The position numbers were made by a program, and so were the translations under genes. This document shows, one piece after another, positions 1,832-31,335 of a stretch of 34,727 bases of DNA. The DNA lies in contig CAMDCX010000016.1 of assembly GCA_945890715.1 (NCBI GenBank), positions 1 to 34,727 on the forward strand, written 5' to 3'. The notes under the pieces were generated by a model. The model did not search any database, had not been told where the DNA came from, and saw only the letters and a list, made by a program, of their open reading frames with translations. Position 1 is the stretch's first letter, and each line of letters opens with the position of its first letter. Source of the stretch: PVC group bacterium (GTDB taxonomy: Bacteria; Verrucomicrobiota; Kiritimatiellia; CAIKKV01; CAITUY01).

Positions 1832-3520
1832 TCAGGGAATCGAAAACTTCACCGCTGTTGCCACCACTTCCGCCTTGATCCGAGCCAGAGCCGCCTCATC
1901 GGCCTGATACCTGACGGCGTCCACAATCCAGCCGCCGAGCCGTTCCATCTCGGCTTCCTTCATGCCACGGGTGGTGACGGCCGGGGTGCCGATACGTACC
2001 CCGGAGGTCACGGCCGGCGGACGGGTATCAAACGGAATCGCATTCTTATTCACGATGATTCCGGCCTTCTCCAGGGCGCAGGACGCATCCTTGCCGGTCG
2101 TCCCGAGCGGTGTCAGATCCACCAGCATAAGATGGTTGTCCGTCCCTCCCGACACAATCCGCATGCCATGCTTGGCCAGATAGGCTGCCAGCACCTGGGC
2201 ATTCTTCACCACCTGCTTCTGGTACACCTTGAACTCAGGCGTCATGGCCTCCTTGAAGCAGATTGCCTTGGCGGCAATGGTGTGCATCAGGGGGCCGCCC
2301 TGAAGTCCCGGAAAGACCTGCTTGTCCAAATCCTGGGCATACTTGGCCTTGCAGAGCACCATACCGCTGCGCGGGCCGCGAAGGGTTTTATGCGTGGTCG
2401 TCGTAACAAAATCGGCGTAGGGAACCGGACTGGGATGCACGCCGGCGGCAATCAGGCCCGCAATGTGGGCCATATCCACCATGAGCAAGGCCCCCACGCT
2501 GTCGGCAATCTCACGCAGCCGCTTGAAGTCCAAAACGCGCGGATAGGCACTCGCACCGGCCACGACCAGCTTCGGCTTGCTCTGAGCCGCAAGAGTCGCA
2601 AGCTCATCATAGTCGATCATTTCCGTTTTTTGATTGACCCCGTAAGGCACGATCTTGAAAAACCGGCCGGAGAAATTCACCTTGTGGCCATGCGTCAAGT
2701 GACCGCCGTGAGCCAGACTCATAGCCAGAATCGTATCTCCCGCCTGCAGTGCCGAAAAATAGACCGCCATATTGGCGGAACTCCCGCAATGCGGTTGCAC
2801 ATTGGCATGTTCGGCTCCAAACAAAGCCTTGGCCCGGTCGATGGCGAGCTGTTCGGCCACATCCACAAACTCACACCCGGCATAATAGCGCTTCCCGGGA
2901 TACCCCTCGGCGTACTTGTTCGTCATGACCGAGCCCTGCGCCTCGCGGATGGCCCGACTGGTGTAATTCTCGGAGGCGATCAGGTCGATCGTCCTGAGCT
3001 CGCGCTCTTCCTCATGCTTGATGGCATTGTAAACCTCGGAATCCACAGCCGACACCGAGGCCACTTCCACGGCCGCCCCGCCCATGGCGCCCATCTTATC
3101 AACGCGCCGCTGATGCCGATCCTCACCCACGAACGACTGCTTGAGCCAGGCCGAGAAAATGGATTCCGCCTGCTCCGGCTTCACCAGATCGCTCCCCAGC
3201 ACCAGCACATTCGCATCATTATGAAGCCGGGTCGTCTGCGCCATTTCAGGCGTCAAGCACAAGGCGGCACGCACCCGGGGAAATTTATTGGCCGCCATGC
3301 TCATGCCGATTCCCGTCCGGCAAATCAGCACCCCCTGCTCCACAAGCCCCTCCGACACCCTCTCGGCCACCAGGCGGGCATAATCGGGATAATCCACGGC
3401 TTCCACGCTGTCGCAGCCGACATCCTCGACGGCGATGCCCTGCTTTTTCATGATCTTTTTCAGGGCTTCCTTAAGTTCAAAACCGCCGTGATCCGCACCA
3501 ATCGCCATTCTCATGATCAA
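1832..3520 (-). CDS. Bifunctional fusion: ribose-5-phosphate isomerase B (N-term) and serine hydroxymethyltransferase (C-term)
   Basis: N-term [21 protein letters not shown]...[23 protein letters not shown]...[13 protein letters not shown] (RpiB); C-term [13 protein letters not shown]...[20 protein letters not shown]...[18 protein letters not shown] (SHMT, PLP lysine motif). One uninterrupted 562-aa frame. Confidence 0.92.
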
Positions 3521-3534
3521 AATCCTTCCTGCGT

Positions 3535-4611
3535 TCAGTTTCCTGGTCTGTACAATCCTCGCAAATGCATCACCAATTCCGGCATGGCCGCCTCAATCTC
3601 GTCGCGAATGGTCCGATAGACATCAACCTTCATTCCGAAGGGATCCGGAACATCCTCCCCCTGATGACGCGCATTGAAATCATTCAGCATCACAACCCGC
3701 CCCGCCACACCGGGGAAACGGAGGATTACCGCGCGTTTGTGAGCTTCCGTCATTACCACAACAAGATCGGCAGCGTCAATCCGCGCCTGTGCCAGAGGCC
3801 GGCTCCGATGATCCCCCAAATCCAGGGTTTTCTCGGCACTCACTTCGATCGAACCCTCACTGGCCCGTTGGCCCGGGATGGCCGACACCCCCGCCGAGTC
3901 CACCTCCCACTCTGATTGTTTTCCCAGCCAATGCCGCGCCAGAATCGCCGCCAGGGGACTGCGACAGGTATTCCCCGTACAGACAAAAAGAACCAGGGGC
4001 CGCGCCATGACCGTCTCACGGGGAAGAGCGCCCTGCCGGAGAATCACGGGACCTTCCCCGGTGGCATCTACGACCGTGCTTTCCACGCCCAGCCCGGCTG
4101 GTCCCGCATCCAATGCCAGGGCCACGCTGTTCCCCAGTGCCTCGAACGCGGCCTCGACCGTCCGTGCCGCAGGGGCTCCACTGATATTGGCGCTGGTGAC
4201 CCGCAGGATGCCGCCAGCCGCTTTTAACACGGCTCTCGCCACAGCATGATTAGGAACACGAAATCCCTCTGTGCCCTTTCCGCACCTCAAAACCAGCGTG
4301 AGGGGACCCGGCCAGTATCGCTTCGCCAACCGCCGCGCCCAAAGAGGAAACATCGCCTTCTGGCGTTCCACCTCCTCAAGTCCCGACACCAGCAGAGGAA
4401 TCGGCTTGCCACGATCCCGTTCCTTGGCAGCATAAATCCGTTCAACGGCACCTTCCACGCTTGGGTCGGCGGCAACTCCATAGACCGTCTCGGTCGGTAA
4501 AATGATCAGTCCGCCGGATCTCAACGCCCGAGTTGCCTCTGAAATAAGAGCAGGTTCAGGACGAACCGGATTAACCACTAGAATTTTGGATTTAGCGCTG
4601 GCCATAACCAC
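3535..4611 (-). CDS. Fusion: Sua5/YciO/YrdC threonylcarbamoyl-AMP synthase (N-term) and low-molecular-weight protein (arginine/tyrosine) phosphatase (C-term)
   Basis: N-term [14 protein letters not shown]...[17 protein letters not shown]...WPGPLTLVL...RVTSANISG...STVVDATG; C-term [23 protein letters not shown]...[19 protein letters not shown] (LMW-PTP P-loop and DP loop). Confidence 0.9.
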
Positions 4612-7432: not shown

Positions 7433-8308
7433 TTAAAATAACTCGCCCTGATCCTTGGCCTTGATCAGGGAATGAAACTCCATCCGGGTATAAAAGGGTC
7501 TCATAATGGCGGGCCATTCAGGCTTCACGGCAAGGGTTTCCAATCCGGGACAACAGGGCAGATCAACCCGAAGCCTGACCAGCGCGAGGTTCCGCTCCAC
7601 GCGATCCCGCTGGGCAATCAGGTTCGTGCGGATGCGCGTCGAGTGAATCTCATCCACCCGGGACCACATGGCCTCAAGGGATCCAAATTGTCCAAGCAAT
7701 TTAGCCGCCGTCTTGGGCCCCATTCCCTCGACCCCGGAAATATTGTCCACGGCATCCCCGGTCAAGGCCAGCCACTCGACAATCTGCCCGGGATGGACGC
7801 CGGTTTTCTCGAAAACCTCAGCGTGACCAAGCCGCTTATCATCCTTTCCCCAAGTCGCCATCCCGATTTTCCCGGAAACCAGCTGGTAGAGATCCTTGTC
7901 ACTGGTCACAATGATGACGTCATCCGCCTCCCGCTCTCCCCAACACGCCAATGAGGCCAGAACATCATCAGCCTCCTGCTGATCGAGGCGAATCAAGGGA
8001 ATGCCAGCCAAGTCCAGGAATTCACGAACCGGCTCAACCTGCCGCCTGAGATCATCGGGCATGGGAGGCCGTTGAGCCTTGTATTCGGGAAGCAGATCCA
8101 GCCGGGTTTTAGGGGACCCTCCATCCCAGGCCACCGCCCAATGGGAGGGTTTCCAGACCTCCAGGAGCTGATGAATCCCACGAATAAAACCGAACACCGC
8201 ATTCGAGGGTTGTCCCTCGTGGGTTGCAAGCCCCCTGATGCCGAAGAAAGATCGGTAAAAGAGCTGAGTCCCGTCAACCAACAGGAGTCTTCGGGCGCTC
8301 ATAGCCAC
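7433..8308 (-). CDS. Stand-alone 5'-3' exonuclease (PolA N-terminal/FEN family)
   Basis: LLLVDGTQLFYRSFFGIRG...QEADDVLASLACW...IVTSDKDLYQLV...LTGDAVDNISGVEGMGPKTAAKLL (acidic clusters and H3TH motif); no polymerase domain. Confidence 0.88.
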   Translation of the reverse strand: MAMSARRLLLVDGTQLFYRSFFGIRGLATHEGQPSNAVFGFIRGIHQLLEVWKPSHWAVAWDGGSPKTRLDLLPEYKAQRPPMPDDLRRQVEPVREFLDLAGIPLIRLDQQEADDVLASLACWGEREADDVIIVTSDKDLYQLVSGKIGMATWGKDDKRLGHAEVFEKTGVHPGQIVEWLALTGDAVDNISGVEGMGPKTAAKLLGQFGSLEAMWSRVDEIHSTRIRTNLIAQRDRVERNLALVRLRVDLPCCPGLETLAVKPEWPAIMRPFYTRMEFHSLIKAKDQGELF

Positions 8309-8313
8309 ACCCG

Positions 8314-11300
8314 TTATTGACCGGGCGCCATCGCTGCAGGAACGGTCATGCCCCCGCTTAGGGCGGACGGCTTATCCTTCGCACCGGGCTTGGCGGTGTC
8401 CTGATGCGGCTTCCGAATCAACTGCCCGCTCGGATCCACAAGTTTGGCGGTCACGAAAATCAGCAGATTTTTTTTGACGCTCTTCTCAGACTTGGAGCGA
8501 AACAGAGCGCCCAGAAGGGGAATGTCGCCTAGAATCGGAATCTTGTCGTTCGTCTTTTCCAATGCCTCCGTGATCAAGCCACCCATGACCACCGTAGCGC
8601 CGTCATAGATTGAAATCTTTGTTTCAACCGAACGAACCTGAAAGAAGGGCTGCGGCATGTTCAAGGTCGACTCGGAGCCGTCGGCGCGACGCACGGTCGA
8701 ACCGTATTGGTACCAGATCGGCTCCGTGACCACCTGGGGCTTCATGGTCAGGTTGATCATGTTTCCATCCGGACTGACTTCCGGCATCACATTCAGAATG
8801 ACTCCCACCTCGCGGGTGGTAAAGTCCTGGGGTGTCACGGTGGTTTCCTGAATCATATTCGCCTGATTGTTGCCGCCACCCCCCACATTTTGACCGATCG
8901 AACCGCCCTGAATTTGGAAGGAACTCGGGTAGATATACTCGATCACCACTTTGATGGTGGCTTCGTTACCGGATTGAGTCGTCACCTTCGGGGCGGACAG
9001 AAGATCGGCATTCCCATTCTGCTCCAAGGCGTGAAGAATCATGGTGATATCCGGGTTTGTCAGCACACCGGCAATGCTCGCCATGGCACCCATGGAGCCC
9101 TTGCCCCCTCCGAGCGGGGTTTCCTTGCCGTTGGCGTCGGCTCCATAGAACCGTAATCCTTTGGTCAGACCCCCTCCAGTCGAATTGGCATTCATCTGGA
9201 CACGGGGATTTGAGGAAAGAGGAGCAAACGGATTCGCGTTATTCTTGACCATCATCTCCCAATTGTCAGTCAGCAACCATTCCAGTCCGGCTTCATACAT
9301 GTCGGTTTCGTTGACCTCGACAAAGCGTGCCTCGATTTCAACCTGTTGGGGTACCACATTCAATTCGGAAAGAATTCTCTCGAAGACCACCAGGTTATCC
9401 GCCGTGTTGGCCACAATCACTTTTCCGATGGCGGAATTATAAGTGATGGAAGATCCTTTGGGGAAATTAACGCCCATGTTTGAAAAATACCCCTTGAGAT
9501 CGGATGGCACCGCATCCCCGATCCCGTCTCCAGCATCGAGGGCAACCTTCTCACGCCCCCCAATGCGACTGACCGTCGGCATCGCTGTCCCCGCCTGCTG
9601 AACGCGCTCAATAAAAGTAGGCTCAACGGGATACATGCGCATTTCCATGGAATCGGGCGACCAATCCACGGGGACAATCATCACAACCTCTCCGTCAAGA
9701 CGCCACTTCAACCCGGCCACACTCGTGATAATTTTAAGAGCGTTATATAGCGTAATGTACCGCGCAGAGAACGTCACCTCAGGAACACCCGAAGAGGCCG
9801 CTTTTTCAGCAGGCGCCCCGAAGACATCATCTGCGGCTCCGCCAGCGGCTGGTTTCGGAGCCGCAGAGGTTCCGAGACCAAGATTAAGGATGATGTTAAC
9901 CCCCTTCTTGGATTCGTCGTCCGTGGTCTTGTCACAATCCCGACTCCGCTTATTCAGGAAATCCACCACATCATGCATATTCGCCTGACGAAACTCGATT
10001 TCGTCAATGACGATCTTCTTCATTTTTTCTTCCAGAAGATTGTTGGGCGTGGTGGTCACCGTCGGACCCGGAGCCTCCTTGCCCTTGACCACCTTGTATT
10101 TTGAATTCCAAGCATCGCGAACTTCCGCTTTCATTTTCCGGGAGGTGGCGTCACGTTCCGCCGTTTTGTTCCCATATTCCCGCTCCCCAAGAACCTTGAG
10201 ATAGCGCATAGCCTCCCGGTTGTCGGGGTCGAGCCCCAACACCGATTCAAAACGGGACCTTGACTCCGCATACTCGCGCTTCACCATAAACTCCCGGCCA
10301 AGACGCATGTATTTTTCAACTTCCGTCTCACTGGGATTCACTTCCGTAACGGTTTCCGAACTAACCGTTTCATCCTTTTTCTTCATCGCGTCAAGCAAGG
10401 CGGCAAGCCTGGGATTGTTGGGACGTTGTTTGAGAAATTCTTGCCCCTTCAACACAGCTTCCCCTTCCTTGCCGTCCTTCACCATTTTCCGGATAAGCTG
10501 GTATTCACATTCTGGAATCTGCGCAACGGCCCGAGCCCGGAGTGCCATGCACTGGGGTACGACGGGCAATTTGTTAAGAGCCATCTTATACTGATCACCG
10601 GCCGTGGCGTAGTCCCCATTTTTTAACGCCTTCTCAGCGCTGTCCATGGCCATGCGTCCATCCAGTTCACGAGCCTTTCTCCGAACGACTTCCTGATCGG
10701 CAATCGTGGTTGCAATCTTGACTCGTTCCTCAGTTCCCATATTTTTAACGGCTGCCTCCAGCGCAGCCTTTGTGCCGGCATCAGGAGACACAGCCGCCTC
10801 GATCACAGGAGCCTGAGCAACGGGTTCCAAAACCGGTTTCGCGGGCTCCTCAACAACCGGGGCGGGCGCAACAACCGCCGCCGCAGGCGCTTCGGAAACT
10901 GGCGCAGGTGCAGGAGCAAGCTCTTCAACAACCGGGGCAGGCGCAGGAGCAAGCTCTTCGACAACCGGGGCAGGCGCAGCAGTGGGCGCAGGAGCAAGCT
11001 CTTCAACAACCGGAGCAGGCGCAGCAGTGGGCGCAGGAGCAAGCTCTTCAACAACCGGTTCAGGCGCAGCAGTGGGCGCAGGAGCAAGCTCTTCAACAAC
11101 CGGTTCAGGCGCAGCAGTGGGCGCAGGAGCAAGCTCTTCGACAACTGGGGCAGGCGCTTCGATCTCCGGCTTTTTCTCAGCATCACCCGGAACGACCGGC
11201 GCGGATTCTGCAACCCCTTCGGCCTGATTCATTTCCTGAAGCAGAACTTGAGTGCCCGTATCCTGTCCCTGTGAAAACCCCTGCCAACCAGACGTAAAAT

Positions 11301-11346
11301 TTATCAGGACAACGATTAGAAAACTGCACATCACATTGAATCTCAT
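8314..11346 (-). CDS. Type IV pilus/type II secretin-family outer membrane protein, Amuc_1098-like
   Basis: Signal peptide, P/A/E-rich repeat region, TPR-like region, N-domains (YNSAIGKVIVANTADNLVVFERILSELNVVPQQVEIEARFVEVNETD) and C-terminal secretin domain (VGVILNVMPEVSPDGNMINLTMKPQV...GATVVMGGLITEALEKTNDKIPILGDIPLLGALFRSKSE). Confidence 0.9.
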   Translation of the reverse strand: MRFNVMCSFLIVVLINFTSGWQGFSQGQDTGTQVLLQEMNQAEGVAESAPVVPGDAEKKPEIEAPAPVVEELAPAPTAAPEPVVEELAPAPTAAPEPVVEELAPAPTAAPAPVVEELAPAPTAAPAPVVEELAPAPAPVVEELAPAPAPVSEAPAAAVVAPAPVVEEPAKPVLEPVAQAPVIEAAVSPDAGTKAALEAAVKNMGTEERVKIATTIADQEVVRRKARELDGRMAMDSAEKALKNGDYATAGDQYKMALNKLPVVPQCMALRARAVAQIPECEYQLIRKMVKDGKEGEAVLKGQEFLKQRPNNPRLAALLDAMKKKDETVSSETVTEVNPSETEVEKYMRLGREFMVKREYAESRSRFESVLGLDPDNREAMRYLKVLGEREYGNKTAERDATSRKMKAEVRDAWNSKYKVVKGKEAPGPTVTTTPNNLLEEKMKKIVIDEIEFRQANMHDVVDFLNKRSRDCDKTTDDESKKGVNIILNLGLGTSAAPKPAAGGAADDVFGAPAEKAASSGVPEVTFSARYITLYNALKIITSVAGLKWRLDGEVVMIVPVDWSPDSMEMRMYPVEPTFIERVQQAGTAMPTVSRIGGREKVALDAGDGIGDAVPSDLKGYFSNMGVNFPKGSSITYNSAIGKVIVANTADNLVVFERILSELNVVPQQVEIEARFVEVNETDMYEAGLEWLLTDNWEMMVKNNANPFAPLSSNPRVQMNANSTGGGLTKGLRFYGADANGKETPLGGGKGSMGAMASIAGVLTNPDITMILHALEQNGNADLLSAPKVTTQSGNEATIKVVIEYIYPSSFQIQGGSIGQNVGGGGNNQANMIQETTVTPQDFTTREVGVILNVMPEVSPDGNMINLTMKPQVVTEPIWYQYGSTVRRADGSESTLNMPQPFFQVRSVETKISIYDGATVVMGGLITEALEKTNDKIPILGDIPLLGALFRSKSEKSVKKNLLIFVTAKLVDPSGQLIRKPHQDTAKPGAKDKPSALSGGMTVPAAMAPGQ
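10913..11160 (-). repeat. In-frame tandem repeat in secretin N-terminal region: six copies, spacing 33 bp once then 45 bp four times
   Basis: GGAGCAAGCTCTTC occurs at 10913, 10946, 10991, 11036, 11081, 11126; encodes (A)P[AE]PVVEELAPAPTAA repeats. Confidence 0.9.
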
Positions 11347-11400
11347 AGAGTTATCTCCTTAATATCCAAAACAGAAAAAAGGCAAAATCCCCATGAATGG

Positions 11401-12414
11401 CTAGGGCTTCACCGGTTGCGATTCAGACATTTTGCTCTCAATCCATACATCCAGACTGCGGGAAGGGTCGTTTATTAATACACGCTTCCCTTGTGTGTCA
11501 ACTTTTTTGACCTTGTAACTGGATCCCTTCAAGTCAAAATCGATATCAGGGCGGACTGCGAAAACCGCCTCATCAATCAAGGAAATCAGCTTGATCTCAT
11601 AATCATCACGAGGCACCTGGCGCCCCTTGATCAATGGAATCTTTTTGCCATTGTGTTCCAAGGTGAGCGTGGGTCCCTCCTGGGCATGCTCGTCATAGGC
11701 ATGGAGCGTAATACCCTCCGCTTTCTCTCCGAGCTTCTTCCAATAGGTTCGACCACCCGAGCGAAGGTTGATTTGGAAAATCAGGTTGGTTCCGGCCTTG
11801 CTGACCCCCTTGAAAATCATCCGGAACGGAATGGGCTTGATCTCAGCAACACGAATCTTGGCAAGGTAGGGAGGATGGCTTTCAGGATCCTTGGGATCCG
11901 TCTTCCATTCATATTCCTCACGCGTGGTAAACCCATCGTTGTCGGGATCCGTATTAACAACGTCCCCGTCGAAGGCGAACACCCCGTGCTTCTCCTCCCA
12001 TTCATCCGGAATGCTGTTATGATTCCGATCAACGATTTCAGTTTTATCGATCGGCTGCGGCGCTCCACACACTAAAAACGTACAATTAGTCGCGGCATAG
12101 GGGATTGGACGATCACAGTTCACGCATTTCACGCGAAGTTCCGGAGTCAGCAACGCCAGTGGCCAGGCCTCATTCTGAAAGGGAGCACCCAGTGCCGTCA
12201 GGGCGCTTCGAAACATTGAACGATCCGGTGGCAACGCCTGTTCAAAGGCGGGCTTAAGCGACTTCAATTCCCTGTCGAATCGCTTCTCAGCCGTTTTCTG
12301 CCCCTGGGCCATAAACGCGAGGACGAGCACCGAAACCAGAAGGACGAGCAGAACTCCGGCCGCGATAATTCGGTCGTAGTTTTTCTTAAACCAAGCTCCA
12401 ATCCCGGCCACCAT
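11401..12414 (-). CDS. Amuc_1099-like pilus-system inner membrane protein with Cys cluster and Ca-binding-like Asp repeats
   Basis: Single N-terminal TM (IIAAGVLLVLLVSVLVLAFMAQ), VKCVNCDRPIPYAATNCTFLVCG, DRNHNSIPDEWEEKHG and NTDPDNDGFTTREEYEWKTDPKDPESHP; position between the secretin and the Amuc_1100-like gene. Confidence 0.7.
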   Translation of the reverse strand: MVAGIGAWFKKNYDRIIAAGVLLVLLVSVLVLAFMAQGQKTAEKRFDRELKSLKPAFEQALPPDRSMFRSALTALGAPFQNEAWPLALLTPELRVKCVNCDRPIPYAATNCTFLVCGAPQPIDKTEIVDRNHNSIPDEWEEKHGVFAFDGDVVNTDPDNDGFTTREEYEWKTDPKDPESHPPYLAKIRVAEIKPIPFRMIFKGVSKAGTNLIFQINLRSGGRTYWKKLGEKAEGITLHAYDEHAQEGPTLTLEHNGKKIPLIKGRQVPRDDYEIKLISLIDEAVFAVRPDIDFDLKGSSYKVKKVDTQGKRVLINDPSRSLDVWIESKMSESQPVKP

Positions 12415-13391
12415 TATTTTACCCCTCCCGGCTGTTTCTCAGGCGCTGGAGCCTGGGGTTTTGAAAACTGAAACACATCCATATCCATCTTAATGGTTAA
12501 TAGGTTTTCGCGCCCGCAGACAACCCGATAGTCCCGCGTTTTGGGAACTTCTTTCTCAGTCTCGATACCACCGGCTTCTTTCGCCGCCCCGCCTGCGCCA
12601 TCCTTGCGCTCAAATACCTTTTCATCTCCCTTAACCTCCAGACGGGTCACCACGGTGAAAATCGAATTGTTGGCAAGTTCGTTAAGGATCTTCATCAGGC
12701 CGCTTTCGCGCGCCTTGAACTGAACTGAAAAACGCCACCGGCCGTAAAGCTGTCCCTCAGGAACAAGCCCCGCTCCCGAATCCACACTGTTTTTCATCTC
12801 GATCTCACCACCCCGCGCGGCGACCGGCACCTTGCCTGCGGAGCCAGCCACGGCATCCACCTCAAACTCCTGCCGGGCAACAGCATCCAGAGAGCTGATG
12901 TTTCCAGCGTACAAGGCCAGACAAAGCGCCTCGACAATCTTAAGTTGCTGAGTCAGCCGCGGCACATCCTGGGGCGCGGGAAGATCTCCCTTTATATGAC
13001 GTCCAAACCCGAAATCAAACGCCTTAGGAACGGCGATTCCTCCGGCCACGGCCTTCGCCAGCAAATTTCGCTGCGTATCGAAAAATTGCGTGATGAAACG
13101 AGCCGGACTTTGCACCACCGGCTCAACCTGCCCCGCCCCCATCGCCGACTGAAGATCCAGCACCTCCTGCTTGATCGTTTGGATATTCTCCCGCTCCAGA
13201 CTGAGGTTGGCCGTCGAAGGAAAGGGATTCTGGCCATACAGAAATTCCAGGCGTTTCTTGTTCTCCTTTAACACGGTTTCAGCGTCGGTGAAGTGCAGAA
13301 ACTTCAACACCACCAGCGCCACAGCTCCCAGAAAAAGAAGCCCCAGCACCAGCGCCAAGGCAATCACGATTATTTTCCGTTGAGATTGCAT
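12414..13391 (-). CDS. Amuc_1100-like pilus-associated protein
   Basis: N-terminal TM, coiled region, FDFGFGRH and C-terminal NLLTIKMDMDVFQFSKPQ resembling the Amuc_1100 family end; gene-order context; TAATG overlap with the next gene. Confidence 0.7.
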   Translation of the reverse strand: MQSQRKIIVIALALVLGLLFLGAVALVVLKFLHFTDAETVLKENKKRLEFLYGQNPFPSTANLSLERENIQTIKQEVLDLQSAMGAGQVEPVVQSPARFITQFFDTQRNLLAKAVAGGIAVPKAFDFGFGRHIKGDLPAPQDVPRLTQQLKIVEALCLALYAGNISSLDAVARQEFEVDAVAGSAGKVPVAARGGEIEMKNSVDSGAGLVPEGQLYGRWRFSVQFKARESGLMKILNELANNSIFTVVTRLEVKGDEKVFERKDGAGGAAKEAGGIETEKEVPKTRDYRVVCGRENLLTIKMDMDVFQFSKPQAPAPEKQPGGVK

Positions 13392-13394
13392 AAA

Positions 13395-15122
13395 TTATGC
13401 CTCCCCCGTAACGGTCTTCTTATTTTGGATGGGGAGAACCACGACCGGCTCGACCGCCTTGACCGACGGCGGAACCGTTCGGTCACACGGCTTCGCATTC
13501 AATCCGATTTCAACCGTAAATTCTGTGGCGAAATCGGTCCCTTCAACAGGCTTGATTCGCTTGATCTGAAGGTCATCCGAGAAATATCCGATGGATTTCA
13601 GACTTGCCACATACTCGGTGATAGCCTGATTGGTAACCTTGTCGCTAAACGCCATGCCCCGGATTTCCAGCCGTATCGCCGTCGCCTTCGCGTCCTTGGG
13701 AGTCATCAACCGGACACTCGTCAACCACATCCCCGGCGCCAGTCGTTGATGAAGACCATTCATCATAACCACCCAACGGGTCCGCGCAACAATCAGCCCA
13801 TTCAAGTCCTCAGCCTTGGCGTACAACTGTTCCTTTTGTTTGGAAAATTCCCCCAACTTGAGATTGGGCGACTCAAGGGCTTCCAGCCGCCCCTGGACCA
13901 TATCCCGCCTCTTTTCAGCCAGGGTGGACATCCGGTGCAGAAACAATCCGAACACAAGCACGGTTAAAACCAGTCCCGCCGCCGCCAAGCCAAAAAACGG
14001 AAGCCGCCGCTGTAGCACCTTGCGGGCGGCCAAAACGGGAGGCATGAGATTGATTTCGACCGGACAGGACAGCGTGCGTCGCAACGCCAAACCCACCACT
14101 TCGCCCAGCAGGTGAAGGTTCGCCGCCACCTTGTCGGACTCAATTGAGGAACTGACTGCCACATTGCGGAACGGATTCAGGAAATCAACCTCCGTTTTCA
14201 GCTTGTCCTTGAGAAACGTGTTGACGTGCGGAATCACGGAACATCCCCCGGTCAACAACACCATGCCGGGCTGGCTTCCGCCCTGCTGGCTACGGTAAAA
14301 ATTAATGGTTCGAATCACCTCGGCATGCAGGCGGGTCATGATATTGCGCACAATCTTGGAGGTACGGTCCGCCACCCCCACCTCATGCCCCTCATACACC
14401 CCGCCAAACCCTACAAACGCATGAGCCACCTTGAGCTGCTCGGCCTCCTCAAAGGAGAGCTCAAATTCCTTCATCACATCCTTGGTGATCATCGTTCCCG
14501 CCACCGGAATGCTGCGACTGAAAATCTTCGTCCCCTCGACAAACACCACATTGGTCGATCGGGCACCCATGTCCAGAATCATGGTGCATCCCGGCAGGTC
14601 GGAATAGTTGTATCGCACCGCGTTGTAAAGAGCCAAAGGCGAAACATCCACCAGGATCGGATCCAGACCGGCCGCTTCAACGCAATCGGTCAGGTTTTTA
14701 ACCAAATCACCCTTGACCGCCACAAGCAGAACGCTCAGTTCCCCTGTCTCCTGGCCGACCAATTGATAATCCCACACCACCTCGTCCATCGGGAAAGGCA
14801 CATTCTGTTGCGCCTCATACTTGACGATCTGAGAAATCTTATCAGGCGTTACCGGGGGAAGCTTGACATAGCGAGGAAAAACCATCTGTCCCGATACCGA
14901 AACGGCCACGGCGCCAGGCCGGATGCCACTGCTTCGCATCGCGTCACGAATCCCCGAGACAATGTAAGCCGACGAATCCAGGGTCGTTTCAGGATCAAAT
15001 CCCAGGGGGGATACGGAATAGTTGACCAGCTCAAGGCTCGTCGTTTCAATAATCCTGAATTCAGCAAGAACCAGCTTACTGTTTCCGATATCCAATGCCA
15101 GAATACGGTCTGATCCAAACAT
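13395..15122 (-). CDS. Amuc_1101-like PilM-type actin-fold ATPase fused to PilN-like TM/C-terminal domain
   Basis: PilM: ILALDIGNSKLVLAEF...VSGQMVFPRYVKLPP...YEAQQNVPFPMDEVVWDYQLVG...MILDMGARSTNVVFVEG...VLLTGGCSVIPHVNTFL; then FFGLAAAGLVLTVLVFGLFLH TM and PilN-like periplasmic part. Confidence 0.88.
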   Translation of the reverse strand: MFGSDRILALDIGNSKLVLAEFRIIETTSLELVNYSVSPLGFDPETTLDSSAYIVSGIRDAMRSSGIRPGAVAVSVSGQMVFPRYVKLPPVTPDKISQIVKYEAQQNVPFPMDEVVWDYQLVGQETGELSVLLVAVKGDLVKNLTDCVEAAGLDPILVDVSPLALYNAVRYNYSDLPGCTMILDMGARSTNVVFVEGTKIFSRSIPVAGTMITKDVMKEFELSFEEAEQLKVAHAFVGFGGVYEGHEVGVADRTSKIVRNIMTRLHAEVIRTINFYRSQQGGSQPGMVLLTGGCSVIPHVNTFLKDKLKTEVDFLNPFRNVAVSSSIESDKVAANLHLLGEVVGLALRRTLSCPVEINLMPPVLAARKVLQRRLPFFGLAAAGLVLTVLVFGLFLHRMSTLAEKRRDMVQGRLEALESPNLKLGEFSKQKEQLYAKAEDLNGLIVARTRWVVMMNGLHQRLAPGMWLTSVRLMTPKDAKATAIRLEIRGMAFSDKVTNQAITEYVASLKSIGYFSDDLQIKRIKPVEGTDFATEFTVEIGLNAKPCDRTVPPSVKAVEPVVVLPIQNKKTVTGEA

Positions 15123-15128
15123 AGCGTC

Positions 15129-15770
15129 CTACTTCAAAGCCTCATAGTCATCAAAGTTGACGAGGGCAAATGGGGTTTTCGACCTGTCCACGACATACCC
15201 TTGCACCGGAACCAATTCCGGCCTTTTCCACCAGTCCTGAGGGAGCGGCTTGCCGGGGCCGAGCTTGCCCTCAGAAAGCGTGCCGACCACCTCCCCCTTG
15301 ATCACGGCCTCCACCGCCACCCCGATCACGTCACCAAACCGGGCCAAACCCGCCGGCCGGATGTAGGCAGACCCCATCCGGCTCCGCCCGCGCGCCACAT
15401 CGACATAGGTAACCGTCCCTTTAAGCAAAGTAAATTTGGCTGTTTCGCGGTTTTTCAGAAGGGCAAAAAAATGAAAAATAATTTCGTCCTGCCATTCCGG
15501 TTCGGTATCAAATTGAAGTCCGAGTTCCACCCAATTCCGGGATTCCCCCCGTCGATTCCCTGAGGAATTCGAGCCTTGCATGATGCTTCGGGGCCCGAGC
15601 CCCGTCAACTCCCTCAGCCGGATCATTCCCCCGGCACCCAAGGCGGATCTACCAGCATTGACAGGAGTGCCCCTGCTGGAGATCGCCTGAGCCAGCGCCT
15701 GGCCATCGCCCATCGCCAAAGCCAACACCACATAAACCCAGATTTTCCAAGCCATGCAATCGGTTTTCAT
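15129..15770 (-). CDS. Amuc_1102-like pilus-system exported protein
   Basis: Signal peptide (MAWKIWVYVVLALAMGDGQALAQA), first gene of the Amuc_1102-1098-like cluster; NWVELGLQFDTEPEWQDEIIFHFFALLKN; assignment largely by synteny. Confidence 0.6.
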   Translation of the reverse strand: MKTDCMAWKIWVYVVLALAMGDGQALAQAISSRGTPVNAGRSALGAGGMIRLRELTGLGPRSIMQGSNSSGNRRGESRNWVELGLQFDTEPEWQDEIIFHFFALLKNRETAKFTLLKGTVTYVDVARGRSRMGSAYIRPAGLARFGDVIGVAVEAVIKGEVVGTLSEGKLGPGKPLPQDWWKRPELVPVQGYVVDRSKTPFALVNFDDYEALK

Positions 15771-15826: not shown

Positions 15827-15854
15827 AGTATAGAGTGAGGCCGATTAAGGTCAA
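15827..15854 (-). promoter_or_regulatory. Putative sigma70-type promoter for the pilus-like operon (TTGACC-16-TATACT)
   Basis: Minus strand: -35 TTGACC (15849-15854), 16-bp spacer, -10 TATACT (15827-15832), about 57 bp upstream of the 15770 start. Confidence 0.55.
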
Positions 15855-20955: not shown

Positions 20956-22116
20956 TCAGGGCAGGAACTTGCCCCGTTTCAACTTCTCGGGAAGATAGGT
21001 CTCGAGAACATAGTTCAGGCCGTGTTTCGCAAACGCCTGCTGTTCCACGCGAACTCCCATTTTGAGCATCTGGTTGAGCGCATCCTGCCATTCCTTGTGG
21101 TGCCTGATGAAGGGGTCATTTTTCATGGCATCCCGGGCCCGCTTGATATCCACGTCTTCCAGGGGATGCGTCGCATCCTGAAGTCCGAAATCGATGATAT
21201 CCTGGGGGGTCACCCCGAGATAATGCGCCTGGGGCACGCAGAAAAAACGGTTGATGTGAGCCGCCTGCCCCGAGCCGACCTTCAGGGTCCGGTAAATATT
21301 GCAGTACCCGTAGGGATCGCCATCGGTAAACACCAGGACGGGCAACTTCTGGTCATCCGCCAGCCGCCGGATAAATCGCCGGCACGCCCGGGTCGGAACC
21401 CCGCTCATGGAAATCAGAACACATTGAGCGGTTTCATAATACCGATGGTGAACCAGGCGCTGAAAAAGCGAGGAGGTTTCAATGACCAGAATGAATTTGG
21501 CGTTGGACTCAAACTTCAGGTGCTCCACCCGGGCCGGGATGCTCCAGGCGCCCGTGCCGAGTTTCCCGCAATTGATTTTCACGATCTCACCGGTTGAGGG
21601 ATTCTGATCGATGACCGTCAACGGCCCAGTCACATCGCCGCCGCGCTCCTCGGGAATATATCCGATCTGCTCGCGATTGACCCCCAGCATGGCTTCCATA
21701 TCATCAAGGAGCGTATCGCTCTCGGGCTGTTCGTCAAACCGGCACTCACCCCAGCTCTTGCTGTTGTAGTAGATCTCACGTTTTCCGGCGATGTCGTTCT
21801 TGTCGAGCAGGTCTTTCTTCGTCGTCGCCAGAAGCCGCATCGACTGGGCAAAGGTCTTGACGGTGTTGTAGCTGAGGGTACGCGTCGCCATTTTCCCCCG
21901 AATTTCAAAATACCCGGTCTTGGGATCATATTTCACATTGGCCAGGGACCGGATCGGAAATCGCAGGGAGGGCTTCTTGGCTTTCTTAATGATGTCGTTG
22001 AGCACCTCGCGCCCCACCGTGAGAATGCGCTCGGACACATCGGCGCGCCCCTTCTTCAGAACCGCTTCGCTGGATTCCTTCGATGTCTTCTGAGGTTTTT
22101 TCTTTGCCATCGTCAT
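20956..22116 (-). CDS. top6A: DNA topoisomerase VI subunit A (Spo11-like)
   Basis: Catalytic Tyr motif KREIYYNSKSWGE; Toprim VIETSSLFQRL and FTDGDPYGYCNIYRTLKVGS; HPLEDVDIKRA. Confidence 0.93.
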   Translation of the reverse strand: MTMAKKKPQKTSKESSEAVLKKGRADVSERILTVGREVLNDIIKKAKKPSLRFPIRSLANVKYDPKTGYFEIRGKMATRTLSYNTVKTFAQSMRLLATTKKDLLDKNDIAGKREIYYNSKSWGECRFDEQPESDTLLDDMEAMLGVNREQIGYIPEERGGDVTGPLTVIDQNPSTGEIVKINCGKLGTGAWSIPARVEHLKFESNAKFILVIETSSLFQRLVHHRYYETAQCVLISMSGVPTRACRRFIRRLADDQKLPVLVFTDGDPYGYCNIYRTLKVGSGQAAHINRFFCVPQAHYLGVTPQDIIDFGLQDATHPLEDVDIKRARDAMKNDPFIRHHKEWQDALNQMLKMGVRVEQQAFAKHGLNYVLETYLPEKLKRGKFLP

Positions 22117-23801
22117 GTCTCCAGATGCGACCGTTCAAGCATTTTCCGCAGAATCTGCACCACCCGGTCTTCTTCCTTGCCAGGAAGATCCAGGATGTCC
22201 TTCAGACCCAGCGCCAGATGCGGAATGTATTTCTCAATGTAGGAGCGTTTTCGTTCCACTTCATTCTCCCGGTTCCGGCGACTGAGATGCACCGCCAGGC
22301 GGCGCCCGCATTCCTGGACACAAAAGGTAATCTCCCGGATGATTTCCGGATAGTGGGCAATGGCCTCCTTGCTTTCACTGGTGAAGGGAACCCACACACT
22401 GGCAATGTGCACCATGATCACCGCCGGTCCGACAGGGACCGACCCGCGCGGTTGGGCCAGACCGTAATTCTTCCAGTTCACCCCGCTGATCGCCTTGGTA
22501 ATGGCACAGGCTCCGCCCATATACAACAGGGGGACCCGGTTGGCAAAACGAAGAACACGCACCGGGTCGTCACCGCTGAGTCCCTCATTCTCCCCCGCCT
22601 TCGCATAGGCCAGCCCCACCTCCACCTGAAACGGGTTGCCCCGGTACACCGTGGGATCCCGGGTTACCGCCGTGCAGAATTCGGCCTGAATCTCCTTCGC
22701 CAATCCACCCGCGATCAATTCCTCACCAATCGGCGACAGGCAATCCGTGGGGGGGCGCATCAACTTGGTCTCATTCACCGCCTTATATAAAACCTCGATA
22801 TCACGCTGGGCAATCCGGCGTGGATTGGCCTTGGGATCCAGCCCCGCCCTGGTACAGATATCCAACGCGGTCGGACTGCTGACACGGGAAAAATCCTCCG
22901 ACAACGCTCCGCGCAGCGTGCGGGACTCGGTATCGCGAAGCATCTGCATCAGCATTCCCAGCTCCACGCCGTGCGGGTGAGGCTTGATCTCCACCGGCGG
23001 CACGGGCAACTGGTGCGCCAACCGCATCCAGGAAATCCACTGCCCTTCTACAAGCGGCGCCGCAGCCTGGCCCTCCGAATCCACCTCCTTGTTCAAGAGA
23101 TTAATCCGGCAATGCAACTGCAAGTGGGGGTTGGCCACCAAACATTGCCTGAGAAACTCATCCACCGAGAGTTTTCCCCGGACATACTGAGCCTCCATCT
23201 CGATGGTTACCGAAGTCCCATGCGGACTCGTCTCGGGAGTCCCGCAGGCTCCATCGGCGGCGGGTCGGGGAAAGGCCGGGCGCCAATCCAGCTCGACATC
23301 CTTCAGGAGGGTTGGCGTATTCTTGCGGGTATCGATCTGGACCTCGATATGATGGGCCATTTTTCCCTTGGATATGCGGGACAGGATCCGGGTGGCCGCC
23401 CCGGTGGTCAATTGCCCGTACATCCCCGCCGCACTAATCCCGATTCCCTGCTGTCCACGGGACATGCGCAGACGATGAAACTTGGAGCCATACAACAGTT
23501 TGGCAAAAATCCGGGGCACCTGCTGGCGAACCACGCCGGGGCCATTATCCGTCACCTCCATCCGGAAGCGCTTCTCTCCGGTCTGGGTGATTTCCACGCT
23601 GATTTCCGGGAGGATTCCCGCCTCCTCGCAGGCATCCAGCGAATTATCAACCGCTTCCTTAACGGCGGTCAACAACGCCTTCCTCGGGCTGTCAAACCCG
23701 AGCAAATGCCGGTTCTTGAGAAAAAATTCGGAGACCGAAATCTCACGCTGCTGGCGAGACATGGTTTCCGCCGTGGCAGACTGGGGTGTGGTTCGTGACA
23801 T
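22113..23801 (-). CDS. top6B: DNA topoisomerase VI subunit B (GHKL ATPase)
   Basis: VSEFFLKNRHLLGFDSPRKALLTAVKEAVDNSLDACEEAGILPEI; VTDNGPGV; FAKLLYGSKFHRLRMSRGQQGIGISAAGMYGQLTTG; HGTSVTIEME; transducer VPFTSESKEAIA. 4-bp overlap with top6A. Confidence 0.95.
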   Translation of the reverse strand: MSRTTPQSATAETMSRQQREISVSEFFLKNRHLLGFDSPRKALLTAVKEAVDNSLDACEEAGILPEISVEITQTGEKRFRMEVTDNGPGVVRQQVPRIFAKLLYGSKFHRLRMSRGQQGIGISAAGMYGQLTTGAATRILSRISKGKMAHHIEVQIDTRKNTPTLLKDVELDWRPAFPRPAADGACGTPETSPHGTSVTIEMEAQYVRGKLSVDEFLRQCLVANPHLQLHCRINLLNKEVDSEGQAAAPLVEGQWISWMRLAHQLPVPPVEIKPHPHGVELGMLMQMLRDTESRTLRGALSEDFSRVSSPTALDICTRAGLDPKANPRRIAQRDIEVLYKAVNETKLMRPPTDCLSPIGEELIAGGLAKEIQAEFCTAVTRDPTVYRGNPFQVEVGLAYAKAGENEGLSGDDPVRVLRFANRVPLLYMGGACAITKAISGVNWKNYGLAQPRGSVPVGPAVIMVHIASVWVPFTSESKEAIAHYPEIIREITFCVQECGRRLAVHLSRRNRENEVERKRSYIEKYIPHLALGLKDILDLPGKEEDRVVQILRKMLERSHLET

Positions 23802-27987: not shown

Positions 27988-28686
27988 TTAAGCCTTGAGG
28001 TAGGCTTGCCGCTTGGGCTCGGGAAATTTCTCGATGGCGTAACGGAGCATGGTGCGGGGCATTTTTTTGCTCCGGGGTTTGAGAAAAGTTTCCAGGACGG
28101 CACCGTCCCGCTTCCCGACTTCACGCAGCATCCAGCCAACCGCCTTGTGAATCAGGTCTTCACGATCACTCATCAGCCGGTCGGCCAATGCCAGAGTGTC
28201 GATAAAGTCACCCTGCCGGATAAAGGGGAAGGTCGCCAGAATGGCGATCCGTCGCTCCCACAGGGATTTTGAGCCCACCAACCGGTAAAGCGGGCGACGG
28301 GAACGGTTCGTGAGATACCCGCCAACCACCTGCGGCGCCGAAAGATCGACCAGATCCCAGTTGTTAATCCGACGGGTATGATCCAGATAGAACCGGTAGA
28401 TCCGGGCCCGATCCGCCTCGCTCCCCTTTTCGAATTGGCGCACCAGAATGAATAGAGCCAAAGCCCGGTCTTCATGAATACCCGACTCCAGAAGAACGTG
28501 AAGCGTCGCCTCATCAACGGCTTCAAACTCCTTCACCAACGTACGCAGCACCGGAACCCGCACGCCGACAAAAATATCGCCCTCGCCATAGTCCCCAGGG
28601 TCGGTTTTGAAAAACCACTGGAGAATCCCGGCATCCTTCGGGTTACCCAGTTTTCGAATCCGAGATTGGATTGTTCGTGAATTCAT
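27988..28686 (-). CDS. DNA alkylation repair protein (AlkD-like HEAT repeat)
   Basis: KTDPGDYGEGDIFVGVRVPVLRTLVKEF...NNWDLVDLSAPQVVGGYL...KSLWERRIAILATFPFIRQGD...HKAVGWMLREVGKRD. Confidence 0.92.
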   Translation of the reverse strand: MNSRTIQSRIRKLGNPKDAGILQWFFKTDPGDYGEGDIFVGVRVPVLRTLVKEFEAVDEATLHVLLESGIHEDRALALFILVRQFEKGSEADRARIYRFYLDHTRRINNWDLVDLSAPQVVGGYLTNRSRRPLYRLVGSKSLWERRIAILATFPFIRQGDFIDTLALADRLMSDREDLIHKAVGWMLREVGKRDGAVLETFLKPRSKKMPRTMLRYAIEKFPEPKRQAYLKA

Positions 28687-29360
28687 CAGTCCTCAAGACG
28701 GAAATCAAATTGAAGATCCATGGTAGCGGAGACCGCCTGTCCATCCCGCTCCGCAGGCTTGAAGCGGGCCTTCCTCGCCGTGGTAAGGGCCGACTCGTCG
28801 AGGGCCGGGAACCCGCTACTGGTTTTCACGGCGGCGGATTCCACTTCTCCCTGACGGGTCACCCGGAGGGAAATCGTCACTTTCCCCGCCTCACCCCGAA
28901 CCCGGGCCGTATACGGATAGTGAGGCTGTATCCCGGAAAGCGAAATCGGCCGACCAGCCCGCTCAACGCCCTGAATCGGCGACCTAACCGCCAAGGCGCG
29001 GGTGTCCTCCAGAGGCATCTGAATCGATTCAGATCGCCAATTTGGCCTGTTTGGAGCCACCATAACCGCGATGACGGGCTCTGGAATTTCCGCCGGTTTC
29101 GCCTCGGGAATCGGGGCAACCGGAATCGCTTCCTGACGCACTTCCGGAGAAACCGACGCCAGGATTTGATCCATCACCGCCGGTTGGGAAACACTGGGTG
29201 AGGGACTTGGCGGTGGCGCCAGATCCAACTCCAAGCGCACAAAAGCCGGAGTCGGCGTCACGGTCGGCCAGTACCGGATGGCCAGAATCAGCACGATGGC
29301 TCCGATAATATGAAGCGACACCGCCAGAATGAAGGAACGGCTCATGGCGGGGAGCGGCAT
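28686..29360 (-). CDS. TonB family energy transducer
   Basis: N-terminal TM (SRSFILAVSLHIIGAIVLILAI), proline-rich middle, C-terminal PHYPYTARVRGEAGKVTISLRVTRQGEVESAAVKTSSGFPALDESALTTARKARFKPAERDGQ. Confidence 0.9.
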   Translation of the reverse strand: MPLPAMSRSFILAVSLHIIGAIVLILAIRYWPTVTPTPAFVRLELDLAPPPSPSPSVSQPAVMDQILASVSPEVRQEAIPVAPIPEAKPAEIPEPVIAVMVAPNRPNWRSESIQMPLEDTRALAVRSPIQGVERAGRPISLSGIQPHYPYTARVRGEAGKVTISLRVTRQGEVESAAVKTSSGFPALDESALTTARKARFKPAERDGQAVSATMDLQFDFRLED

Positions 29361-29391
29361 GAAAATCACGCCATTTCCATCCAACTCCCTC

Positions 29392-29423
29392 ATTCTGGAT
29401 TCTGCATTCTGGATTCTGGATTC
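29392..29423. repeat. 7-bp-period tandem repeat (ATTCTGG ATTCTGC ATTCTGG ATTCTGG ATTC)
   Basis: Four 7-mers plus 4 nt, in the tonB/btuB-like intergenic region. Confidence 0.8.
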
Positions 29424-29430
29424 TTTCCCT

Positions 29431-31335
29431 TTAGAACGTCACTTTTATCCCGCCATACCCGGCGCGGCCGGGGGTTCCATACCCGAGCACTTCCTCGTAC
29501 TGCTCGTCAAACAGGTTTTCCACCCGACCGAACAGGGTAACGTTCTTATAAACGTCATACGAGGCATAAAGGTTCAAGAGGGTGTAGCTGTCCAAGGTGA
29601 TATTCTGATAGATCGAAAAATCCTCATCCTGCCGTTCACCCACATACACTAACCCGGCTGTTCCCCGGAATTTCGAGGTAAAGGCATAGGTCGCGTCGAG
29701 GGCCGCCTTGTTGCGCGGACGTCGGAGCAGTTCCGCACCGGTCATTTTATCCTCGGCATCCGTATAGGTATACGAGACTCGCATGGACAGATCCTTAACC
29801 GGCTTGGCTGCAACAAAGGTCTCGACGCCCCGCGATCCGGCCTGGCTGACGTTCCCGTATGAGGCGGTCACGAAATTGTAGTCTATCATATCATCGAATT
29901 GATTCTCAAAGTAGGTCACGCCGACCGTCAGCGCACCCGCCATGAGATCCTGCTCGACCCCGGCATCCCAGCCCTGGCTCGTCTCGGGATTCAGATCCGG
30001 GCTTCCATAAATCGAGTACAGCTGAAACAGGGAAGGCGCCTTGAAACCGGTTCCGTACGAACCGCGCAACCGGGTTCCCGTGGCCGCGAGGTCATACACC
30101 GGCGCCACCCGCCAGGTGGTCTCCGTGCCGAACACATCATAATGATCCACCCGCCCGCCGAGGGTCGTCGTCAAGGGGCCGGTCGTCAGGACATCCTGAG
30201 CATAGGCGCTCTGATGCCGGGCCGTCTTGCGATCGAACCGATCCACATAACCCATCGCCTCATAGGTTGACTCGGCCGATTCCTGCTGAACCTCGAACCC
30301 GGCAGTGACCAGGTTGGCCTTTCCGAAATACAGGTCATTCTGGAGTTCCAGCTTCTGAAGCAGACTGTCGAATAGGGAATGCCCCAGAGACGATGTGTCT
30401 TCCCGACGCTGGCTGACCCAGGAGCCGCCGAGGCGGGGGCGCCAGAAGCCGTCGAACAACGTGGCTTTGCCCTCGCCGTATAGGAGAAGGGTGTTCGCTT
30501 CACCGCGATCATCGGTATCCGCCAGAATGCCGCTCATATTATAGCCGTCATAATCATACCGGGCCTGATTCCAGCGCACCAGTCCGGTGGCCTCAAACTC
30601 CTCGACGGGCGTCCATCCCAGCCGTGCCGACGCCTCGGTGCGGCCGTAGCCATCCTTTTCCGTGTTACCGTTGCGTTCATTCGCGCTGGAGATTCCCTGC
30701 GAATCCTGGCGCGAGGCGCCTGCGGAATAATTGTACCGGGAATTACCGCCACGAACCTCGGCCTTTTCATTGAAGGTATTGAACGAGCCTGCTTCGGCGG
30801 ACACTTCACCGGAAGCGGGGCCGCTTCCTTTTTTGGTAATGATATTAATCACGCCCCCCATCGCATCGGCACCATAGAGCGTGCTCTGTGGCCCACGAAG
30901 AACCTCAATGCGCTCCACATTCTCGACCGGCACCTGACTGAGATCCGCCCCGCGCCCGACATCGGAGGCATTATTAAGAGGCACTCCGTCAACCAGCACC
31001 AGAGTTTGTTCAGACTTGGCGCCGCGCATGAACACCGACGCCGTGCCCCCGGCCCCGCCGCTCTGAACCACATCCAGCCCCGGCACGTCACGCAGAGCCT
31101 GGACCACTGAGGCGCACTGACGATCCCTCAAACGTTCCCGGTCAATCACCGTGACCGAACTTCCCACCGAGGAAACCGGCATTTCCACCCGGGTCGCCGT
31201 CACCACGATGTTATCCTGCACCACCTCATTGGTCGTCGCCGCTCCGGCCACGCCCGCCGCCATCATCATCCATCCCGCCACCACATGCTGCTTCTTGATC
31301 TTCATTCCGACTTTCCTTCGACCGTTACCAGGCAT
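29431..31335 (-). CDS. btuB: TonB-dependent outer-membrane receptor, BtuB (vitamin B12) type
   Basis: DNIVVTATRVEMPVSSVGSSVTVIDRERLRDRQCASVVQALRDVPGLDVVQSGGAGGTASVFMRG...TLVLVDGVPLNNASDVGRGADLSQVPVENVERIEVLRGPQSTLYGADAMGGVINIITKKG; preceded by a cobalamin riboswitch. Confidence 0.92.
   Translation of the reverse strand: MPGNGRRKVGMKIKKQHVVAGWMMMAAGVAGAATTNEVVQDNIVVTATRVEMPVSSVGSSVTVIDRERLRDRQCASVVQALRDVPGLDVVQSGGAGGTASVFMRGAKSEQTLVLVDGVPLNNASDVGRGADLSQVPVENVERIEVLRGPQSTLYGADAMGGVINIITKKGSGPASGEVSAEAGSFNTFNEKAEVRGGNSRYNYSAGASRQDSQGISSANERNGNTEKDGYGRTEASARLGWTPVEEFEATGLVRWNQARYDYDGYNMSGILADTDDRGEANTLLLYGEGKATLFDGFWRPRLGGSWVSQRREDTSSLGHSLFDSLLQKLELQNDLYFGKANLVTAGFEVQQESAESTYEAMGYVDRFDRKTARHQSAYAQDVLTTGPLTTTLGGRVDHYDVFGTETTWRVAPVYDLAATGTRLRGSYGTGFKAPSLFQLYSIYGSPDLNPETSQGWDAGVEQDLMAGALTVGVTYFENQFDDMIDYNFVTASYGNVSQAGSRGVETFVAAKPVKDLSMRVSYTYTDAEDKMTGAELLRRPRNKAALDATYAFTSKFRGTAGLVYVGERQDEDFSIYQNITLDSYTLLNLYASYDVYKNVTLFGRVENLFDEQYEEVLGYGTPGRAGYGGIKVTF

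Follow-up and report, generated by a model that had tools for sequence, protein, structure and literature searches.

A divergent MUL2-type locus in a Kiritimatiellia genome probably encodes the alignment subcomplex and secretin of a type IV pilus

In the genome of an uncultured member of the Kiritimatiellia we found a five-gene block that represents a new, divergent member of a system already described in Akkermansia muciniphila as MUL2. This block probably encodes the trans-envelope alignment subcomplex and the outer-membrane gate of a type IV pilus, with the motor and the pilins encoded elsewhere, a reading to which we assign a probability of roughly 0.8. The window, meaning the whole stretch of 34,727 nucleotides that was analysed, corresponds to contig C16 in an assembly (G000) of 2.1 Mb with 87 contigs and a completeness of 89.5%. 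In a tree of 94 PilM-like proteins, which was made with a quick method and contained some long branches, the window protein fell inside a Kiritimatiellia clade beside lake metagenome bins. Lentisphaeria and Akkermansia-type sequences formed separate groups in the same tree, and Planctomycetota PilM was placed far outside on a long branch.

All five genes are encoded on the minus strand, running from 15770 to 8314 in the order 1102-1101-1100-1099-1098 (named here after their Amuc_ counterparts). The first gene encodes an Amuc_1102/MUL2A-like exported protein (15129..15770, 213 aa), followed by genes for an Amuc_1101/MUL2B-like protein (13395..15122, 575 aa), an Amuc_1100-like inner-membrane protein (12414..13391, 325 aa), an Amuc_1099-like protein with a single transmembrane (TM) segment (11401..12414, 337 aa), and an Amuc_1098-like outer-membrane secretin (8314..11346, 1010 aa). 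The preliminary description of this DNA had called the genes co-directional and tightly spaced, which holds for the strand and for three junctions (6 bp, 3 bp and a one-base overlap), but the last junction measures 54 bp. It had also listed an exported protein, two single-TM proteins and a large secretin, with which both hydropathy and family matches agreed: 1099 and 1100 each showed one N-terminal TM, 1101 one internal TM near residue 377, and 1102 and 1098 carried signal-peptide-like N-terminal stretches. A possible promoter on the same strand (TTGACC-16-TATACT, 15827..15854), which is a consensus match only (10/12), lies 57 bp upstream of 1102. The neighbours of the block are ordinary and include genes for a 5'-3' exonuclease, for purine synthesis and for a PAS histidine kinase/response regulator.

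The proposed correspondence to the Akkermansia families was borne out by profile searches. All five NCBIfam models for Amuc_1098-1102 matched proteins of the block in locus order, with E values of 8e-133 for 1098 (NF042912), 5.8e-25 for 1099 (NF042425), 3.5e-26 for 1100 (NF038287), 4.5e-146 for 1101 (NF045709), and 2.8e-11 for 1102 (NF042424). The curated (equivalog) cut-off was passed by 1099 only, and since the other four remained below it we regard the proteins as divergent members of their families and not as strict equivalogs. The assignments of 1100 and 1102 were further confirmed against the PDB, where the 1100 profile matched Amuc_1100 with an E value of 1.3e-17 and 1102 matched Amuc_1102 (7dsz) with an E value of 0.0012 as a single sequence and 1.4e-19 as a profile. 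The Amuc_1102 family has been likened to archaeal type IV pilin (PMC13174399).

The 1101 protein matched PilM_2 (E 4.2e-45), and its profile matched Myxococcus PilM (3jc8_Ma) over residues 1-350 with an E value of 1.4e-62 and, as a separate match, Myxococcus PilN (3jc8_Na) over residues 356-524 with an E value of 1.5e-9. Because PilM and PilN are matched by separate stretches, with the TM near residue 377, 1101 is a PilM-PilN fusion made of a cytoplasmic actin-like PilM (about residues 1-350), the TM segment and a periplasmic PilN part. Its earlier description as a PilM-like ATPase thus captured the PilM part but not the PilN part. For 1100, an AlphaFold model (mean pLDDT 84.5) retrieved Amuc_1100 first in a fold search (E 3.8e-11; TM score 0.84 to 6kny by target length), and the next matches were PilO of P. 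aeruginosa (2rjz, E 8e-4) and of Myxococcus (3jc8_Oa, E 2.9e-3), with a probability of 1.00. We base the predicted PilO-type fold of 1100 on this fold search and do not count as proof the weak Pfam PilO matches, which were obtained for 4 of 42 homologues of 1100 (best E 0.014). The secretin 1098 (PF00263, E 1.7e-35) consists of a TPR-like N-terminal half and a C-terminal secretin domain, and scored about equally with GspD and PilQ models. Its N-terminal part (residues about 60-145; window 10940-11157) contains a 45-bp tandem repeat with 4.8 copies and 95% match, of which each unit encodes VVEELAPAPTAAP(A/E)P.

Profile and fold searches thereby placed the type IVa pilus components PilM, PilN, PilO and PilQ all within the block. 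The arrangement resembles the pilMNOPQ operon of Pseudomonas and Myxococcus in its order M-N-O-[P position]-Q, in the PilO fold, in having the secretin last, and in having motor genes at other loci. It differs in that PilM and PilN are fused, that the extra gene 1102 stands first, and that 1099 takes the place of PilP. The 1099 protein combines its TM anchor with a CxxC...C zinc-ribbon-like motif, a TSP3/EF-hand-like Ca motif and a beta-rich C-terminus. Among its homologues D156, D158 and D160 were invariant and the Cys residues conserved; TSP3_bac was detected in 27 of 39 members and the zinc-ribbon-like UPF0547 in 12 of 39. Searches with Pfam, PDB profiles and Foldseek gave no match between 1099 and PilP. 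The Foldseek comparison of its model, which is multi-domain with a pTM of 0.49, to the PDB reached a TM score of about 0.1 only, and a PilP role is therefore suggested by gene position only, though with such a model 1099 may still bear remote similarity to PilP. Compared to the A. muciniphila cluster, the block shares the five families in the same order and orientation, including the PilM-type 1101 with a C-terminal extension, the exported 1102 and the large secretin (1098 being PilQ in MUL2). Besides its divergence, it is set apart by the extra Pro/Ala-rich repeats in the N-terminus of the secretin.

The gene order is widely conserved. We fetched loci with the 1101 protein and searched them with profiles built from the five proteins; all 55 loci from Kiritimatiellota and Lentisphaerota were collinear, 35 of them with five genes, 4 with five genes plus another secretin in tandem, and 16 truncated at contig ends, so that 39 were complete. 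The same order was present in an Akkermansia-type genome (L155), in support of the order proposed earlier, and in two other members of the phylum (L156 and L157). Two tandem 1098-type secretin genes were seen in the Lentisphaerota loci L090, L091, L092 and L094 and in L157. Strong 1101 matches were found in 125 of 155 genomes of the phylum (those at least 90% complete, plus the 89.5% complete genome of the window). The preliminary description had suspected a core envelope machine of a wider PVC clade; this is supported for Verrucomicrobiota in the GTDB sense, but in the Planctomycetota loci that were returned a distant PilM-like gene was accompanied by no more than a distant secretin, and 1099, 1100 and 1102 were absent. 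At one locus (L116, G027:C1:2764000-2783000) the block is disrupted: 1099 is interrupted by a DDE_3 transposase gene, ORFs resembling transposases occupy the place of 1101, 1100 is short and 1102 is missing, and PilB and PilC of that relative remain.

As had been stated before, the window encodes no PilB, PilT or PilC; our search of its ORFs likewise returned neither a homologue of Tad proteins nor an ORF resembling class III pilins. This is a property of the window and not of the lineage, in which the motor genes have been split off from the block. The source genome encodes seven clear T2SSE ATPases, and several PilB/PilC and a PilT. Among its contigs, C45 carries a full type IV pilus cluster that includes a secretin, a PilM-like protein and a pilin of its own, C31 a type II secretion system (T2SS), C39 a T2SS-like gspHIJKLMD set, C13 a Tad cluster, and C83 an orphan PilC. 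A close orthologue of the latter (at least 394 bits) was found in 40 of 44 genomes of the class. In relatives a pilB-pilT-pilB-pilC unit ends with this type of PilC; the unit was read directly in L115 and L159, pilB-pilT-pilB was read directly in L160, and the unit is implied by coordinates in many more relatives. Within the 89.5% complete source assembly the pilB-pilT-pilB unit and a prepilin peptidase were not found, both of which are present in members of its genus.

Motor genes are not next to the block at most loci. In one relative (G034, locus L115), however, a single strand encodes PilB-PilT-PilB-PilC, two N_methyl pilin-like genes with prepilin N-methylation motifs, one further gene, and then 1102-1101-1100-1099-1098, and at L066 the C83-type PilC lies 672 bp upstream of 1102. 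The tie between pilins and the block comes from proximity in L115 only. The genome survey for co-occurrence that had been suggested earlier showed pilT in 124 of 125 genomes with 1101 versus 22 of 30 without it (Fisher p 6.6e-6), a comparison that counts genomes and not independent losses, is uncorrected for shared descent, and is driven by about three clades; 8 of the 9 phylum genomes without pilT also lacked 1101. The presence of pilT alone is no proof of partnership with the block, because C45 holds a separate full pilus cluster with its own secretin. Several candidate links were dropped. The PilB on C38 of the source genome adjoins its own PilC (L123) and occurs in G032, which is without the block. 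An ATPase on C42 that was first labelled PilT is TadA-like instead. The PilC upstream of the block in L047 and L114 is another paralogue (40% identity), separated from the block by unrelated genes, and the joint absence of the C83-type PilC and the block from G032, seen once, is not significant.

In the proposed machine, the PilM-PilN protein would couple a cytoplasmic motor through the inner membrane, and the PilO-like 1100 together with 1099 in the PilP position would span the periplasm as an alignment frame under the 1098 secretin, the presumed gate in the outer membrane. PilB and PilT on a PilC platform, supplied with the pilins from another locus, would extend and retract a filament through this gate, and the exported 1102 might be an added subunit of the envelope or filament structure that contributes a surface or envelope function. 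We infer the physical assembly, the filament and the substrate of this machine. Its most likely use, by analogy with MUL2 of A. muciniphila, would be to capture large glycans or particles and take them up by retraction. The preliminary description had missed that the locus is known as MUL2 with a mucin-accumulation phenotype (PMC13174399, PMC12418764) and that it maps onto pilMNOPQ. MUL2 comprises amuc_1099-1102 (PMC13174399), and the MUL genes of A. muciniphila encode pili and are reported to be needed for internal mucin accumulation (PMC12418764, citing Davey 2023). Marine Akkermansiaceae with the MUL2 locus take up fucoidan, and both mucin and fucoidan accumulate inside Akkermansiaceae cells (PMC13174399). 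We favour glycan capture because of this role of the A. muciniphila homologues in mucin accumulation and the fucoidan uptake by marine Akkermansiaceae.

The same accumulation inside cells with MUL2, and the lack of an adjoining motor at most loci, would also fit an import that proceeds without motor or filament, with the secretin and periplasmic proteins serving a 'selfish' uptake of polysaccharides as a gated channel or a scaffold. We consider this unlikely, as no role is known for a PilM-PilN fusion and a PilO fold outside a pilus-type platform, pilT nearly always co-occurs, and one relative has motor and pilin-like genes directly adjoining the block. About equally unlikely is type II-like protein secretion, for which the block would provide the secretin and platform of a system using a pseudopilus. 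The GspL/M/C/D platform and its secretin are architecturally related to the block, the folds of PilO and GspM are related, and 1098 does not favour PilQ over GspD models; against this stand the separate T2SS clusters with their own GspD in the same genome (C31 and C39), the best PDB matches of the 1101 profile, which are PilM and PilN of pili and not GspL, and the linked motor operon with PilT, a retraction ATPase that is absent from T2SS. Least probable among these alternatives is a pilus that takes up DNA in natural transformation and works together with the product of the 5'-3' exonuclease gene (7433-8308). Of 35 testable loci, 14 have the exonuclease no more than 158 bp after 1098 and the other 21 lack it at this spot, and a rho-like ORF beyond it at L066 suggests a housekeeping neighbour; ComEC is present in most genomes tested, but occurs also in genomes without 1101 and pilT and therefore does not discriminate.

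Beyond the type IV pilus reading itself, the block might represent a distinct Verrucomicrobiota pilus subtype with fused PilM/PilN, a metal-binding 1099 in place of PilP and the new exported subunit 1102, whose ancestral role in lineages from water, sediment, rumen and gut would be to capture large glycans and import them; we put this forward as a tentative and rather doubtful extension. New with respect to the described system are its extension to Kiritimatiellota and Lentisphaerota, its mapping as PilMN-O-?-Q, and the linkage to motor genes. Among papers accessible without subscription we found none that reported the locus in Kiritimatiellota/Lentisphaerota or this mapping with motor linkage, and the published survey of MUL2 covered the order Verrucomicrobiales and two other orders (PMC13174399), outside which the clade of our host lies. 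The motor genes are now named as targets for asking whether glycan import is pilus-driven.

Amuc_1100 is known from studies of its activity on the host as a probiotic protein, in which it is usually treated as an outer-membrane or pilus protein standing on its own. The homologue in the block has a predicted fold like that of PilO, which serves in alignment and is anchored in the inner membrane, and the block occurs almost throughout a phylum whose members mostly live outside hosts. The host effect of Amuc_1100 therefore looks like a side effect of an ancient envelope machine.

Several other genes of the window were noted. The exonuclease gene at 7433-8308, 5 bp after the secretin gene, encodes a stand-alone Pol I-type 5'-3' exonuclease, and the polymerase domain of DNA polymerase I was not found in the incomplete source genome. 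Two genes appeared to be fusions, one of ribose-5-phosphate isomerase B and serine hydroxymethyltransferase (1832-3520), the other of Sua5/YrdC and a low-molecular-weight tyrosine phosphatase (3535-4611). The genes for the A and B subunits of topoisomerase VI, an enzyme type more familiar from archaea and plants, are adjacent at 20956-23801. A TonB-like protein adjoins a TonB-dependent receptor at 28686-31335, and an MmeI-like combined restriction-methylation protein is encoded at 31906-34614.
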